64,000 nt of DNA from Acidobacteria bacterium RIFCSPLOWO2_12_FULL_68_19 (GTDB lineage Bacteria > Acidobacteriota > Vicinamibacteria > Vicinamibacterales > UBA2999): assembly GCA_001767525.1 (NCBI GenBank), contig MELF01000020.1, positions 75,417-139,416 of the forward strand. The letters are read 5' to 3'. Positions 35,736 through 40,712 of the stretch are shown here, piece by piece (the stretch's first letter is position 1; every line of letters begins with the position of its first letter). The notes under the pieces were generated by a model. The model searched no databases, was not told the origin of the DNA, and saw only the letters and a program-made list of their open reading frames with translations. The position numbers were made by a program, and so were the translations under genes.

Positions 35736-36392
35736 TCAATCCGCCCGCACGCCGAGCGGACAACTGACGCCGGTACCGCCGTGGCCGCAGTAGCCGCCGG
35801 GGTTCTTCGCCAGGTACTGCTGATGATAGTCCTCCGCATAGTAGAACGGCGGCGCCTCGGCAATCTCCGTCGTGATGCGCCCGTAGCCGGCCCCCGTCAG
35901 CCGCTCCTGGTACGCGGCGCGGGATGCCTCGGCAGCGCGCCGCTGCTCCGGCGAGCACGTGTAGATGGTCGAGCGGTACTGTGTCCCGACGTCGTTCCCC
36001 TGCCGCATGCCCTGCGTCGGATCGTGGTGCTCCCAGAAGATCTTCAGCAGCGCGTCGTAGGTCGTCTGCGCCGGATCGAATACGACGAGCACCACCTCGG
36101 CATGTCCGGTCATGCCGCCGCAGACCTCGCGGTAGGTAGGGTTCGGCGTGCACCCGCCGGCATATCCCACCGCCGTGGTATAGACGCCCTGGGCCTCCCA
36201 GAATCTTCGCTCGGCGCCCCAGAAGCACCCCATGCCGAACATCGCCGGCTCCAGCCCAGCCGCAAAGGGCGGCGCCAGGCGATGACCGTTGACGGCGTGC
36301 GCGTCCGGCACCGGCATCGGGGTCTCGCGTCCCGGCAGCGCCTCCTCCGGGCGCGGCAGGCGCGTCCCGAGCGAGGCTGGTGAATAGGCCAT
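35736..36392 (-). CDS. msrA: peptide-methionine (S)-S-oxide reductase
   Basis: Repairs methionine-S-sulfoxide in proteins. The 218-residue protein is of the long E. coli type, with an extra N-terminal segment ([20 protein letters not shown]). The catalytic motif [13 protein letters not shown] is near residue 52. [24 protein letters not shown] follows, as does [21 protein letters not shown]. The resolving Cys pair is in [13 protein letters not shown] at the C-terminus. Start ATG 36392. It is divergent from the pseudouridine synthase gene with only 10 bases between starts. Confidence 0.94.
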
Positions 36393-36402
36393 GAGGTACA
36401 CG

Positions 36403-37107
36403 ATGCCCGAAAACGGCCGCGCAATTCAATTGCTCGCCAGAAGACCTCCGCCCGCGCCTGAACCGATTCCGATCGCCGTGCTCTACGAGGACGAGTGGCT
36501 GCTCGCGGCGGACAAACCGGCGGGAATGGTGGTGCACCCGACGTACCGGAACTGGTCGGGCACGCTGCTCAACGGGCTGCTCGCCCATGTCAGACGCGCC
36601 GTCCAGCCGCGGATCATCACCCGGCTCGACAAGGGGACCTCCGGTGTCGTGCTGGTGGCGTTGACGCCGGACGTCCATAGGCTGGTCCAGCGCGACGCCA
36701 CCGCGCGGCGCCTGCGCAAGGAGTATCTGGCGGTCGTCGCCGGCACGCCGAGTCCGCCGGCCGGGTCCATCGAGGCGCCGCTCGCCCGCAGCGCCGCGGA
36801 TCGGCGCCGCGTGGTCGTCGACGACGCGGGCCGGGCGAGCCGGACCGACTACGAGGTCCTGTCGAGCGAGGCGGACCGTTCGCTCCTCCGGTGCGAGCTG
36901 GTGACCGGCCGGACGCACCAGATTCGGGTGCACCTGGCGTCACGGGGATGGGCGGTGCTGGGCGACTCGGTCTACGGCGCCGCGTACCCCGGCCTCGCGC
37001 GCCAGGCGCTGCACGCGTGGCGCGTGACGCTGCCGCACCCGATCACCCGCGAGATCCTGACGATCGAGGCGCCGCTCGCCGCCGATCTGCGGGCGATCAT
37101 CGGTTAA
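36403..37107 (+). CDS. RluA-family pseudouridine synthase
   Basis: A 234-residue enzyme converting uridine to pseudouridine in rRNA or tRNA. The catalytic Asp lies in [17 protein letters not shown] near residue 68. Other family blocks are [32 protein letters not shown] and [11 protein letters not shown]. The S4 RNA-binding domain of RluC/RluD is absent, as in RluA and TruC types. Which RNA site it modifies cannot be said. It overlaps the permease gene stop by 4 bases, convergently. Confidence 0.92.
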
Positions 37108-37991
37108 GGGTTCACCTGGCCCGCCGGCCGCCGCGCCTCCGTGGGCGCGACCCTGGCGGCGCCGTGCGCTTGGAGGCGGAACAGCGGCCGGACGGCCGCC
37201 ATCGCCGCGAGCGCGACACCGAACGTGCAGACGATGGTCGCGCCGGTCGGCAGGTCGAACTCGACCGAGAAGTACATGCCGAGCATCGAGACAACGGTCC
37301 CCATGACCCACCCGATGGCCAGCCTCGGTCCGATGTTCCTGGAGAACAGCATGCCGCCAACCGACGGCACGATGAGATAGCAGAAGACCAGCAGCACGCC
37401 CGCAATCGCCACCGACCGTGTGACCACGAAGCCGAACGACGCGTAGAAGAGGAAGTCCCAGAACCGGACGGACATCCCGCCGGCCGCCGCCGCCTCCGCG
37501 TCGATGGAGATTTCGAGGAACCGCCGCCTGAAGACGAAGTGAAACAGGCCAATCACCAGGTAGATGGCGCCGGTCAGCCACACCTCGGCCCATTGCACGG
37601 CGAGGATGTTGCCGACGAGCATGTCGCGAAGGTGTTCGGCTTCGCCGGTGACCATGCTCAGCGTGAGAATCACCGCCGCCGACGCCACCGCGTAGGAAAT
37701 GCCGATGATCGCCTCCTGGGGAATGCGCGCCTTGTGCCCCTTGACGAAGGCGAAGATCGCGGCGCCGATGAGCGTGAAGGCGAGGCTCATCCAGTAGACC
37801 GCGGCGCTCTGCGGATCGTCGCCCCGCCAGACGGCGATCGCGGCGCCGAGCGAGGCGATCTGCGCGAGCGAGAGATCGACGAAGATGACGCCGCGCTCGA
37901 CGACGTGCAGCCCCAGATAGGCATGGATGCCGGCGATGATCAGACTGGCCGTGATCGCCGGGGCCAGGAATTGGAGGATCGCCCAGTCCAC
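37104..37991 (-). CDS. metal ABC transporter permease (ABC-3 family)
   Basis: A 295-residue inner-membrane permease with about eight helices, of the ZnuB/TroC/MntB family. HAYLGLHVVERGVIFVDLSLAQIASLGAA near residue 23 is the signature EAA-like loop. GISYAVASAAVIL and SRNIGPRLAIGWVMG are also typical. The GTG start lies 7 bases after the binding-protein gene. No ATP-binding subunit follows, since the operon ends here against a convergent gene; the ATPase must be elsewhere or shared. Confidence 0.9.
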   Translation of the reverse strand: MDWAILQFLAPAITASLIIAGIHAYLGLHVVERGVIFVDLSLAQIASLGAAIAVWRGDDPQSAAVYWMSLAFTLIGAAIFAFVKGHKARIPQEAIIGISYAVASAAVILTLSMVTGEAEHLRDMLVGNILAVQWAEVWLTGAIYLVIGLFHFVFRRRFLEISIDAEAAAAGGMSVRFWDFLFYASFGFVVTRSVAIAGVLLVFCYLIVPSVGGMLFSRNIGPRLAIGWVMGTVVSMLGMYFSVEFDLPTGATIVCTFGVALAAMAAVRPLFRLQAHGAARVAPTEARRPAGQVNP

Positions 37992-37997
37992 GACACC

Positions 37998-38933
37998 CTA
38001 CTTTCCGGTGACCGGCTTCAGCGCCCCTGCCAGCAGATTCACGTTGTAGTCGAACAACTGAATGTAATCGGTCACCTCCTTCGCGCCGCCAACCGACGGG
38101 GCGAGCACGAGCACCCGTCCCCCGGCGATCTGGCTCGCAATCGCCTGGGGCGTCCTCAGACTGAAGTACGGCTCGACCACGATGAACTTCACGCCTTGCC
38201 GTTTCATCTCCTCGATGAGCTCGAGCGTGTGCGAGGGAGACGGCGGAATGCCAGGCTTGGGCTCGACATATCCGATCACCTCGAGGCGGAAGCGCTCCAT
38301 GAAGTTCGGCCACGACCGGTGATAGGTGACCACCTTGGCGCCCGTGTGCGGCGCCATGGCGGCGTCCCACCGTTTCTCGGCCGCGGCCAGGCGCGCGTTG
38401 AAATCGTCGTATCGCTGCCCGAAATAGGATCGGTTGGCCGGGGACAGCTCGCCCAGCTTGTTGCGAATGGCCTGGGCGATGAGTCGCCCGTTGCCCGGCT
38501 CCAGCCAATAGTGCGGATTGCCAAGCGGATGCACGTCGCCCATGGCGCGCGTGATCTGGCCGGTGGGGATCTCCAGAATCCGGACGTTCAGCGAGGCGTC
38601 CAGATACCCGGCCGCGCCGGGCTGGACGCGGGCATTGCGGCTGCTGGTGATGAGCGGGGGCAGCCAGCCGATTTCGAGCTCCCGGCCGACGGCCACATAG
38701 AGATCCGCCCGGTTGACGGTCAGGATGAAGCTCGGCTTCGGCTCGACGAAATGCGGATCCTGGTAGCCCCTCGCGAGGGCGGTGACATTCACCCGGTCCC
38801 CCCCGACTTCGCGGGCGATCGACGCCAGGTCCTCGGTCGAGGCGACGACATTCAGTCTGTTCTGGGCCTGCGTCTCCCCGGCAGCGAGGAGCGCAACGGC
38901 GGCCGCCGTGATGATCGATCTCGTCATGCGCAT
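37998..38933 (-). CDS. metal ABC transporter substrate-binding protein (ZnuA/TroA-like)
   Basis: A 311-residue periplasmic metal-binding protein after a 23-residue signal peptide ending TQAQ. Candidate metal ligands are the His in YQDPHFVEPKPS near residue 61, HPLGNPHYWLEPGN near residue 139 and TYHRSW near residue 203, plus a C-terminal Glu in VVEPYFS. There is no His-rich loop. Zinc or manganese are both possible. It lies between the porin and permease genes in a same-strand operon. Confidence 0.9.
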   Translation of the reverse strand: MRMTRSIITAAAVALLAAGETQAQNRLNVVASTEDLASIAREVGGDRVNVTALARGYQDPHFVEPKPSFILTVNRADLYVAVGRELEIGWLPPLITSSRNARVQPGAAGYLDASLNVRILEIPTGQITRAMGDVHPLGNPHYWLEPGNGRLIAQAIRNKLGELSPANRSYFGQRYDDFNARLAAAEKRWDAAMAPHTGAKVVTYHRSWPNFMERFRLEVIGYVEPKPGIPPSPSHTLELIEEMKRQGVKFIVVEPYFSLRTPQAIASQIAGGRVLVLAPSVGGAKEVTDYIQLFDYNVNLLAGALKPVTGK

Positions 38934-38950
38934 GATGGATGTCCCCGCCC

Positions 38951-40267
38951 CTAGAACGGGTGCGCGCCGTGGGTTCCGATGGTGAAGAGCAACTGGAACA
39001 GCAGCTCGTTGGCCACCCGGTCCCCGTCACCGTAGCGCGTCCGCCGGTACTGGCTCCTGAGCTGGCTGAACTCGCTGGGCCAGTACGTGACCACCGTCGA
39101 AAAGCCCCGGTCGCGGATCGAGGCGTTCGCGCCGCGCTCGGCCTGGTCGTAGCGTCCACCCGCGAACCACCGCCGTGCGAACTGGTAGTCGAGCGATCCG
39201 TAGAGCCCGAACGCGCGCTCGAACGCCGACACCTCTTCCCGGCGGCTCCAGACGAGCTCCGTGCGGGCCGCCAGCGAACGGTAGATGGCGCGGCCGAGCG
39301 GCCTCCATCGGAGCGTCAGGTCGGCGCCGTACAGCTCGGTGACGAAGTCGCTCCCGAGGTCGTTGTGTCCTCGCGTGTAGGACGCGCCTGCCTCGACGTT
39401 CGTCTGGTCCGTCAGATCGACGTAGCCGCGCACCCGGCCGAGCGCTGCGACATCCCGGCGACGACTCGACTTGAAGAGCGTGCCCGAATCGCCGCGATAG
39501 AGTTCGCCGGTGGCTTCCAGGAAGACGCTGCCGGCAGGAATGAGACGGCTGACCGAGACACCGGCATCCTTGATGCCGGTGTCGGGATCCTCGACGCTCC
39601 CGCCGAGCAGGTTGTACATGACGAGCGGGCGGTCGATCCACGGCAGCGTGTGATTGTGAAACGCGTTCAAACGGCCGAAGTTCGCCCGCATCTTCCCGGC
39701 CTTGACGAGCAGCCCTCCCGGCAGCGCGGGAAACGTGGCGAAGCCCTCTTCGACCTCGATGCCTTCCTCTCCAATCGCCAAGAAGAAATCGGCCCGCGCG
39801 TACGGATCGACGATGGCCTGGAAGCTGGCCTCGCTCTCCTGCAGCGTCATGAACGGCGTTGGCGCCACCGTCCCGCTCCCGCCCCGGTCCCTGCCGGAGG
39901 AGCCGAGGAAGTTGCCGATGATGCCGATGTCGGGGTTGAAGATCTTGGACCCCGCGGTCGCAACGCCGTAGGCGGGCAACTGTCCCGCCGGGGCGCCGCC
40001 GCCGGGGGCACCGGGCGGCACCTCCGCCGTTTGTGGCGCCTGGGGCGCCGGGGCAGCGGCAGGAGCCCCCTGCGCCGCGCCGAGCCGCGCCTCGAGCGCG
40101 GCGAGACGCTCGCCGTATTGCTGCTGGACCGTCTCGAGTTCCTTGCGAAGCTGCTCGATCTCCCGTCGCAGGCCCTCGACGTCGACCGTCTGGGCGGCCG
40201 AGGGTCTGACGGCTCCCACCAGCAGGCCGGCGGCGAGCACCGGCCACAGCACATACACACGTCGCAT
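38951..40267 (-). CDS. outer-membrane porin-like protein with N-terminal coiled coil
   Basis: A 438-residue exported protein: signal peptide ending PSAAQ (residue about 26), then a coiled coil (DVEGLRREIEQLRKELE onward), an Ala/Pro/Gly-rich linker, and a beta-rich barrel ending in Phe (THGAHPF), as outer-membrane proteins do. GGAGG precedes ATG 40267. Its position directly ahead of a metal-binding protein and permease suggests that it admits the metal or a metal complex across the outer membrane. The coiled coil may trimerise or contact peptidoglycan. Confidence 0.82.
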   Translation of the reverse strand: MRRVYVLWPVLAAGLLVGAVRPSAAQTVDVEGLRREIEQLRKELETVQQQYGERLAALEARLGAAQGAPAAAPAPQAPQTAEVPPGAPGGGAPAGQLPAYGVATAGSKIFNPDIGIIGNFLGSSGRDRGGSGTVAPTPFMTLQESEASFQAIVDPYARADFFLAIGEEGIEVEEGFATFPALPGGLLVKAGKMRANFGRLNAFHNHTLPWIDRPLVMYNLLGGSVEDPDTGIKDAGVSVSRLIPAGSVFLEATGELYRGDSGTLFKSSRRRDVAALGRVRGYVDLTDQTNVEAGASYTRGHNDLGSDFVTELYGADLTLRWRPLGRAIYRSLAARTELVWSRREEVSAFERAFGLYGSLDYQFARRWFAGGRYDQAERGANASIRDRGFSTVVTYWPSEFSQLRSQYRRTRYGDGDRVANELLFQLLFTIGTHGAHPF

Positions 40268-40349
40268 GAGTCCTCCACACCAATGAGCGCGGTCGTCGCG
40301 TGACACGGATCACGACACGGCTCGCGCGTGATGAAACGGGCTGGAAGGA

Positions 40350-40712
40350 CTATGCGGGCGGCGAGCGGAGCGGAGGCTGCGCGACCGGCGCGCGGCTGAA
40401 AATCGCGAAGAACTGGACCGGCATCCCCGCGCCGGCATCGGAGGTCGGCGCGGACACGACGCGCGCCTCGGTGCGCGGGCGGAACGCCCGGACCCAGTGG
40501 CACACGAGGCAGTGCAGCGGGTGTTCGGTCTCGGGCGCGATGGGCGCGCGGACGGCATGCGCGGCGGCATCATGGACGACGGCCACCGACTGGCACGCGG
40601 CGTCGTGGCAGTCGTCCTCGTGCGGGACGACGGCCGAGCCGCCGACAACGCCCATCGCGACGACCGCGCACACCGCGATTGACGATGCGCGGGATCGAAA
40701 CCACTGCAGCAT
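40350..40712 (-). CDS. small exported Cys/His-rich protein
   Basis: A 120-residue protein with a hydrophobic leader (residues 8-30). It continues HEDDCHDAACQS, then VVHDAAAHAV, and EHPLHCLVCHWVRAF near residue 86. Four Cys and several His in pairs suggest metal binding. HCLVCHW resembles motifs in DUF2946-type proteins found near copper or zinc genes. It is the first gene of the metal operon, 82 bases before the porin. A chaperone or metal-buffering role is inference. Confidence 0.7.
   Translation of the reverse strand: MLQWFRSRASSIAVCAVVAMGVVGGSAVVPHEDDCHDAACQSVAVVHDAAAHAVRAPIAPETEHPLHCLVCHWVRAFRPRTEARVVSAPTSDAGAGMPVQFFAIFSRAPVAQPPLRSPPA

Follow-up and report, generated by a model that had tools for sequence, protein, structure and literature searches.

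Introduction

Importers of the ABC-3 (type II) class of ATP-binding cassette (ABC) transporters, such as ZnuABC and PsaBCA, combine a ZnuA-type metal-binding protein with a membrane permease and a dedicated ATPase subunit, and in type II systems a coupling loop of the permease serves as the docking site for the ATPase. Here, we analyze an operon in a 64-kb stretch of contig MELF01000020.1 from Acidobacteria bacterium RIFCSPLOWO2_12_FULL_68_19 (that whole stretch is called the window below), which encodes a small CxxC protein, an outer-membrane porin, a ZnuA-type binding protein and an ABC-3-type permease, and contains no ATPase gene. With moderate confidence, we read the operon as an ATP-independent, binding-protein-dependent metal importer under copper regulation, for which copper would be the most likely substrate.

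C-terminal ends resembling RAPP are known arrest motifs. The closest described leader with such an end is CruR, a DUF2946 protein encoded atop a copper-uptake operon of Bordetella; according to the main text of Roy et al. (PMC9426467), copper is sensed through its CxxC motif, read-through is set by the C-terminal RAPP together with Rho, and the Rho site is placed in the C-rich region of the leader. The receptor encoded downstream in that operon is described as a copper-chelate importer in passages of a later paper (PMC13038864). Little is understood of how copper passes through the inner membrane of bacteria, and the operon described here is a compact, widely conserved candidate for this step with what appears to be a copper switch of its own.

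Results

An ABC-3 cassette without an ATPase gene

The original prediction, made from the window's letters, described a one-directional four-gene metal-uptake operon that lacks its ATPase. All four open reading frames (ORFs) are present on the minus strand, as follows.

40712-37104, minus strand: operon of four ORFs, from ORF calls on the sequence
40350..40712, minus strand: small CxxC protein, 120 residues, ATG start, the 5'-most gene; putative CruR-like (DUF2946-like) copper-responsive upstream ORF
40268..40349, minus strand: intergenic region of 82 nt before the porin, with GGAGGA directly upstream of the porin ATG
38951..40267, minus strand: outer-membrane porin, 438 residues, predicted from an AlphaFold2 model and Foldseek
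37998..38933, minus strand: ZnuA-type periplasmic metal-binding protein, 311 residues (Pfam ZnuA, 2.9e-53)
37104..37991, minus strand: ABC-3-type permease, 295 residues, GTG start (Pfam ABC-3, 3.0e-33)

There is no ATPase gene inside the operon or between the operon and either neighboring gene, and the binding-protein gene lies next to the permease gene on a single 187-kb contig.

We then compared the operon with its relatives. A search of 59 genomes, counting the window's own, gave permease matches in 25, of which the one in G014 is weak and partial. The porin, binding protein and permease keep this order without an operon ATPase in 23 of the 23 strong relatives; the permease of L080 runs off its contig. 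In a scan of named genomes, we analyzed the best 80 of 451 relatives, all of which are titled Acidobacteriota or its classes except one metagenome-assembled genome (MAG) labeled Bifidobacterium breve. The binding protein is found in all 80 loci and the porin in 77, the other three beginning at contig ends, and permease identity ranges from 61 to 86%. Gene order, which the original prediction had proposed to check, is conserved far above chance, and its suggestion of a dedicated envelope-spanning metal route is supported. Because many of the loci sit close to the end of a contig, genes farther away can escape view. The MAG labeled Bifidobacterium breve (L100, CALQBJ020000168.1) groups inside the Acidobacteriota, yet carries that title; its label is probably wrong.

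The ATPase genes seen inside the named-locus stretches belong to other systems. Candidates near the cassette that we rejected as partners were PstB (L067, L073), a GldA-like protein (L150), an ECF/CbiO-type protein (L211), an oligopeptide-type protein (L234), ABC-F-like proteins with two ABC_tran domains and ABC_tran_CTD (L101, L102), and FecCD-linked ATPases (L207, L218, L224). Pfam ABC-3 matches occur in 78 of 149 genomes of the phylum, and the canonical ABC-3 loci that we fetched (L170-L199) carry an ATPase in 30/30 cases. A further 40 loci, mostly of intermediate score, include 33 with porin, binding protein and permease without an ATPase; three canonical loci (L232, L237, L238); two loci, L202 and L205, with porin, binding protein, ATPase and permease in the same order but from another family (f18); and L209, with binding protein, ATPase and permease, truncated before the porin. 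The last of the 40, L231 (1869-5746), is an odd ATPase-containing form, in which a porin and a binding protein are accompanied by weak ATPase-like frames and by a permease so divergent that its tree branch measures 9.5 changes per column.

A permease tree of 99 of the 157 sequences places 63 ATPase-less permeases on one side of a branch (support 95/99) and 32 canonical permeases on another (97/83). L202, L205 and L209 are placed next to the ATPase-less clade, on long branches (91/73), and the porin-plus-ATPase group is probably its sister. The simplest history suggested by these sequences is a single loss of the ATPase from a porin-linked, ATP-driven importer, after which the ATPase-less form spread or was passed down within the phylum. 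Because the porin-plus-ATPase loci sit outside the ATPase-less clade, the loss is old and phylum-wide rather than local. The original prediction had named an adjacent ATPase gene in relatives as the sign of a local loss; such loci do exist, but L202 and L205 both lie outside the clade that holds all sampled ATPase-less permeases. Two further readings, an ordinary importer whose lineage has lost znuC locally and a gap in the assembly, would find their precedent in these two loci, and together we give them a negligible probability: the binding-protein and permease genes are contiguous on the 187-kb contig, each strong relative repeats the order without a gap, and the phylum-wide pattern already refutes them.

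Similar cassettes occur on two plasmid records outside the phylum. Sulfurovum mangrovi (L293, 2441-5747) encodes a small protein, porin, binding protein and permease without an ATPase; its small protein has a CxxC and ends in HAPP plus four residues, and its porin ends in GAHGAHAF. Vibrio campbellii (L292, 4695-7575) has the porin, binding protein and permease, again without an ATPase. Judged by eye, both permeases look loop-shortened.

Search for an ATPase encoded elsewhere

A conventional ATP-driven importer could draw on an ATPase encoded elsewhere and shared among systems, as Bacillus subtilis YusV serves several type II importers (PMC11466899, Table 3). We searched the 59 genomes with a profile of 14 ABC-3-linked ATPases (E value of 1e-52 or better) and obtained matches in 48, with 52 places listed. 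The best 30 were fetched, and 30/30 stand beside FecCD permeases, so that no orphan ABC-3-type ATPase emerged among them. Of the genomes with the cassette, 20 of 24 have such a match, as do 28 of 35 without it, so the candidates do not track the cassette. When eight cassette genomes were chosen for a closer look, several, including G068 (a single contig) and G157 (100% complete), had no candidate above 154 bits, versus 190 bits for a genuine ABC-3 ATPase (G051:C162) that had been kept out of the profile.

The missing ATPase of the window operon, for which the original prediction had suggested seeking an unlinked znuC-like gene, appears genuine: none was found, linked or unlinked, in its own genome. 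The best candidate there (G000:C20:39653) was rejected as a BtuD-like gene beside a FecCD permease. Judged by inspection, none of the next 29 translated ATPase loci, which rank ahead of 30 lower-scoring matches, resembles ZnuC. Overall, we consider a shared ATPase unlikely. It would be in keeping with the PsaC-like permease fold and with loop residues that are still common in the ATPase-less family, A168 (A, S or G in 97/121) and G172 (115/121); the docking loop is hypervariable, and it is partly or wholly deleted in five of the 121 permeases.

Permease fold and changed residues

The permease is predicted to have the ABC-3 (BtuC-like) fold. Its AlphaFold2 model (predicted local distance difference test score, pLDDT, of 90) is PsaC-like, with a Z score of 26.7 and a root-mean-square deviation of 3.3 over 265 residues against PsaC (7kyp). 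One element of the model is central to the comparison below.

Permease residues 155-174: loop matching the ATPase coupling region, from the structural model and loop analysis

We compared 121 distinct ATPase-less permeases with 31 canonical ones, identical permeases having been removed beforehand; L231, PsaC, L202, L205 and L209 belong to neither group. The loop segment 164-174, which lies between predicted helices 134-153 and 175-196, ranks 4th of 248 segments in variability among the ATPase-less permeases (2.06 bits, with a protein mean of 1.08) versus 150th of 248 among the canonical ones (1.92, with a mean of 2.02). At least three of the eight residues 164-171 are deleted in 5/121 ATPase-less permeases (L225, L229, L230, L236, L239) versus 0/31 canonical ones.

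The membrane core differs as well. PsaC His50 and Asp46 are presumably metal-site residues, an assignment that we take from background knowledge and the structural match. The His50 equivalent is a histidine in 30 of 31 canonical permeases and a glutamine (Gln44) in all 121 ATPase-less ones. Five other polar residues are nearly fixed in the 121 ATPase-less permeases (H23 in 118, H29 in 120, D39 in 121, E119 in 121 and H151 in 119), and each is seen in just 0-1 of the 31 canonical sequences. The ATPase-bearing L202, L205 and L209 have Gln44 and lack H23, H29, D39, E119 and H151.

The same losses could be read differently. If the permease homologue were a membrane dock or sensor instead of a transporter, taking metal from the binding protein for the assembly of periplasmic cuproenzymes, then the joint loss of the ATPase and the canonical metal-site histidine, and the extra C-terminal HEAT-repeat domain of some family members, would fit such a role. 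We regard this as quite improbable: the transmembrane core is strongly conserved over the phylum at the identities given above for the named loci, new polar residues have become fixed, and the porin is retained in the operon.

As a separate observation, some ATPase-less permeases have an additional hydrophobic stretch and, beyond it, a C-terminal extension (L218, 5862-4309; L203, 5174-6580). HEAT repeats lie within the tails of these two, which were the ones scanned with Pfam, and similar tails are found in L201, L204, L217, L219, L220, L223, L224, L228 and L233.

A CruR-like leader ORF

The small protein has a hydrophobic N-terminal segment, a CxxC at residues 68-71 and an RSPP at 116-119, followed by one residue and the stop; the spacing from CxxC to RSPP is 44 residues, as in CruR-type leaders. 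We scored this architecture as a CxxC, 41-47 residues, RxPP and a stop within 10 residues. We counted the 104 non-redundant loci whose upstream DNA reaches 450 bp or more, leaving out 15 with less, and the architecture stands upstream of the porin in 84. The spacing is 44 in 54 of these, 43 in 18, 42 in seven, and 41, 45 or 47 in five; the C-terminal motif is RAPP in 39, RSPP in 25, RGPP in 11, RPPP in eight and RDPP in one. By comparison, the architecture appears in 0/20 canonical ABC-3 loci (228 kb scanned), and the small protein is the only ORF of this kind in the window. These counts supersede an earlier, looser HCxxC scan (64/139 loci, with at least two frame artefacts, L153 and L166).

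The leader ORF also contains more C than G in 84 of 85 loci (99%), a set that comes from a scan with limits slightly different from those behind the 84/104 count; the mean excess is +0.08, versus +0.005 to +0.017 in the three genes that follow. The small protein of the relative L071 gives a sub-threshold Pfam DUF2946 match (E value of 7.5e-4); we classify the window protein as CruR-like and not as a DUF2946 member, because it has no Pfam DUF2946 match of its own. A DUF2946 search of its genome returned nothing significant and missed the window ORF as well, so it is uninformative on further CruR genes.

The original prediction took the small protein for a periplasmic metal carrier. Having the defining architecture of a CruR upstream ORF, it is more likely a cis-acting, copper-responsive regulator of this type. 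A copper switch at the head of the operon is well supported by sequence, and because the architecture precedes the porin in 84/104 loci and 0/20 canonical ABC-3 loci, the operon is probably attenuated by copper. By analogy with cruR-bfrG, the 82-nt region upstream of the porin would be the site of attenuation. L202 and L205, which encode a porin and an ATPase, also carry a CruR-like ORF, and the copper switch therefore seems older than the ATPase loss. In L058 (10812-11075) and L061 (8309-8662), another CruR-like ORF stands directly behind the permease and perhaps heads the next transcription unit.

The binding protein and the identity of the metal

The binding protein is of the ZnuA/TroA type and carries metal-ligand histidines, as in ABC-3/ZnuABC importers. 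His61, His135, His141, His205 and His235 are invariant in a 39-row alignment, and His61, His141 and His205 align with histidines of the ZnuA structure 2ov1 (PDB match, E value of 5.7e-23), which we take to be that of Synechocystis. The same alignment shows Pro279-Ser280 at what is presumably the position of the aspartate ligand in related proteins. Such a histidine site could accommodate zinc or copper.

The substrate could accordingly be zinc or another metal, with the CxxC switch either sensing that metal or merely limiting expression. Zinc-binding ZnuA structures (2ov1) are the nearest sequence matches of the binding protein, and the text of PMC9973294 places some CutF-like proteins in nickel/cobalt contexts. 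According to the same text, most CutF-like proteins that contain cysteine stand in copper contexts. The CxxC, 44-residue spacer and RxPP form the CruR copper architecture, and a Zur/Fur consensus, sought with simple patterns only, is found upstream in 0/107 loci. We therefore hold a metal other than copper to be somewhat unlikely, and zinc or manganese, which the original prediction had in mind, to be less likely substrates than copper.

Porin and flanking genes

The porin start is placed at the ATG at 40267 that follows GGAGGA; the ORF list begins instead at a GTG at 40306. The AlphaFold2 model (mean pLDDT of 79), which includes one extra leucine ahead of the ATG, predicts a signal helix, a coiled-coil-like helix at 31-66, a low-confidence linker and a 16-strand barrel, the fold of general and specific porins. 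It resembles porins such as OprP (Foldseek, 2o4v, E value of 5e-11). The porin had no significant Pfam match, and a PDB sequence search gave nothing. Its C-terminus is GTHGAHPF.

At its 3' end, the operon meets the convergent gene that the original prediction had noted, a pseudouridine synthase (36391-37107, Pfam match) overlapping the permease stop by 4 nt; the other neighbor is a divergent PhoD-like gene (Pfam match). In relatives, the gene 3' of the permease on the same strand often encodes a small protein with a zinc ribbon (L108, 8100-8384, and 14 other loci; MQCRNCGTEI in the representative).

Discussion

We propose the following mechanism for an ATP-independent importer under copper control. 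When copper is scarce, the ribosome would stall at the RSPP of the leader and the operon would be read through; when copper binds the CxxC, the stall would be relieved and Rho would end transcription ahead of the porin. The porin would let metal, free or chelated, into the periplasm, where the His-rich ZnuA-type protein would capture it. The ABC-3-type permease, presumably descended from an ATPase-driven ABC-3 importer after loss of the ATPase, would then move the metal inward without ATP hydrolysis. This flux may be driven by delivery from the binding protein, by the membrane potential or protons, and by chelation in the cytosol.

Several points weigh against this proposal. On the energetic side, ABC ATPases are numerous in the window's own genome, where one of another family might serve in trans, and the loop of the window permease retains D164-A168-G172, a pattern found in 60/121 ATPase-less and 16/31 canonical permeases, with which docking of an ATPase would be compatible. 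The permease variability and residue counts are unweighted for relatedness, and the sister placement of the porin-plus-ATPase loci depends on 91/73 support and long branches. On the regulatory side, 20 of the 104 loci have no recognizable CruR pattern, the spacing in the Sulfurovum mangrovi protein is longer than that of CruR, the window small protein has no significant match in Pfam or NCBIfam, and the C excess may be due in part to the abundance of Pro, Ala and His in the small protein. Arrest by CruR itself lacked direct demonstration, according to a passage of PMC10987492, and the text of PMC9973294 on CutF-like proteins allows that copper may activate instead of repress and that some relatives may sense other metals.

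Tentatively, we suggest that an ABC importer controlled by a copper-sensing leader became ATP-independent, losing its ATPase and fixing polar residues that are new to the membrane core. Such a system may represent a new class of secondary transporter that depends on a binding protein, and may provide a complete copper route from outer membrane to cytoplasm for the Acidobacteriota, with relatives in the Campylobacterota (Sulfurovum) and Vibrio. We found no report of an ATPase-less ABC-3 cassette in the literature searched, which excluded subscription papers and supplements. In the main text of PMC9426467, supplement aside, the terms znuA and ABC transporter have zero occurrences, and the leader-peptide papers PMC9426467 and PMC9973294 mention no ABC-3 or ZnuA context in the parts covered, which again excluded supplements. 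If the permease works without ATP, it would be an example of a primary pump turning secondary, and natural intermediates are on hand in the porin-plus-ATPase loci and the loop-deleted permeases. CruR-type control would also extend, by spacing and not by sequence similarity, to a phylum unnamed in the portions of the CruR literature covered.

Comparison with known systems

Transporters that depend on a binding protein and need no ATPase are familiar from TRAP systems, in which the binding protein hands its substrate to an ATPase-free permease; their membrane fold is unrelated, whereas the window permease would derive from an ABC importer. ATPase-free import has been claimed for solitary ECF S-components such as BioY, which differ in having a type III fold and no binding protein. 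Like ZnuABC and PsaBCA, the window operon encodes a ZnuA-type binding protein and a permease of predicted PsaC fold (Z score of 26.7). Unlike them, it has no gene for a dedicated ATPase subunit and adds a porin and a CruR-like leader; in its family the coupling loop is variable or deleted, Gln44 replaces PsaC His50, and H23, H29, D39, E119 and H151 are newly fixed.

As with CruR (Bp2923, DUF2946) of Bordetella pertussis in the main text of PMC9426467, a small ORF with a hydrophobic N-terminus, a CxxC, about 45 residues and a RAPP-like end heads the operon in C-rich mRNA. It differs from CruR in being too diverged for a Pfam match, in its intergenic gap of 82 nt versus 162 nt, and in its downstream porin, binding protein and permease, a context unnamed for CruR in that main text. 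The CutF leader of cutFOG in Rhodobacter capsulatus, as presented in the text of PMC9973294, is likewise an exported nascent metal sensor that governs downstream genes, but it has a CxxxC, requires its signal peptide and responds to copper with raised expression.

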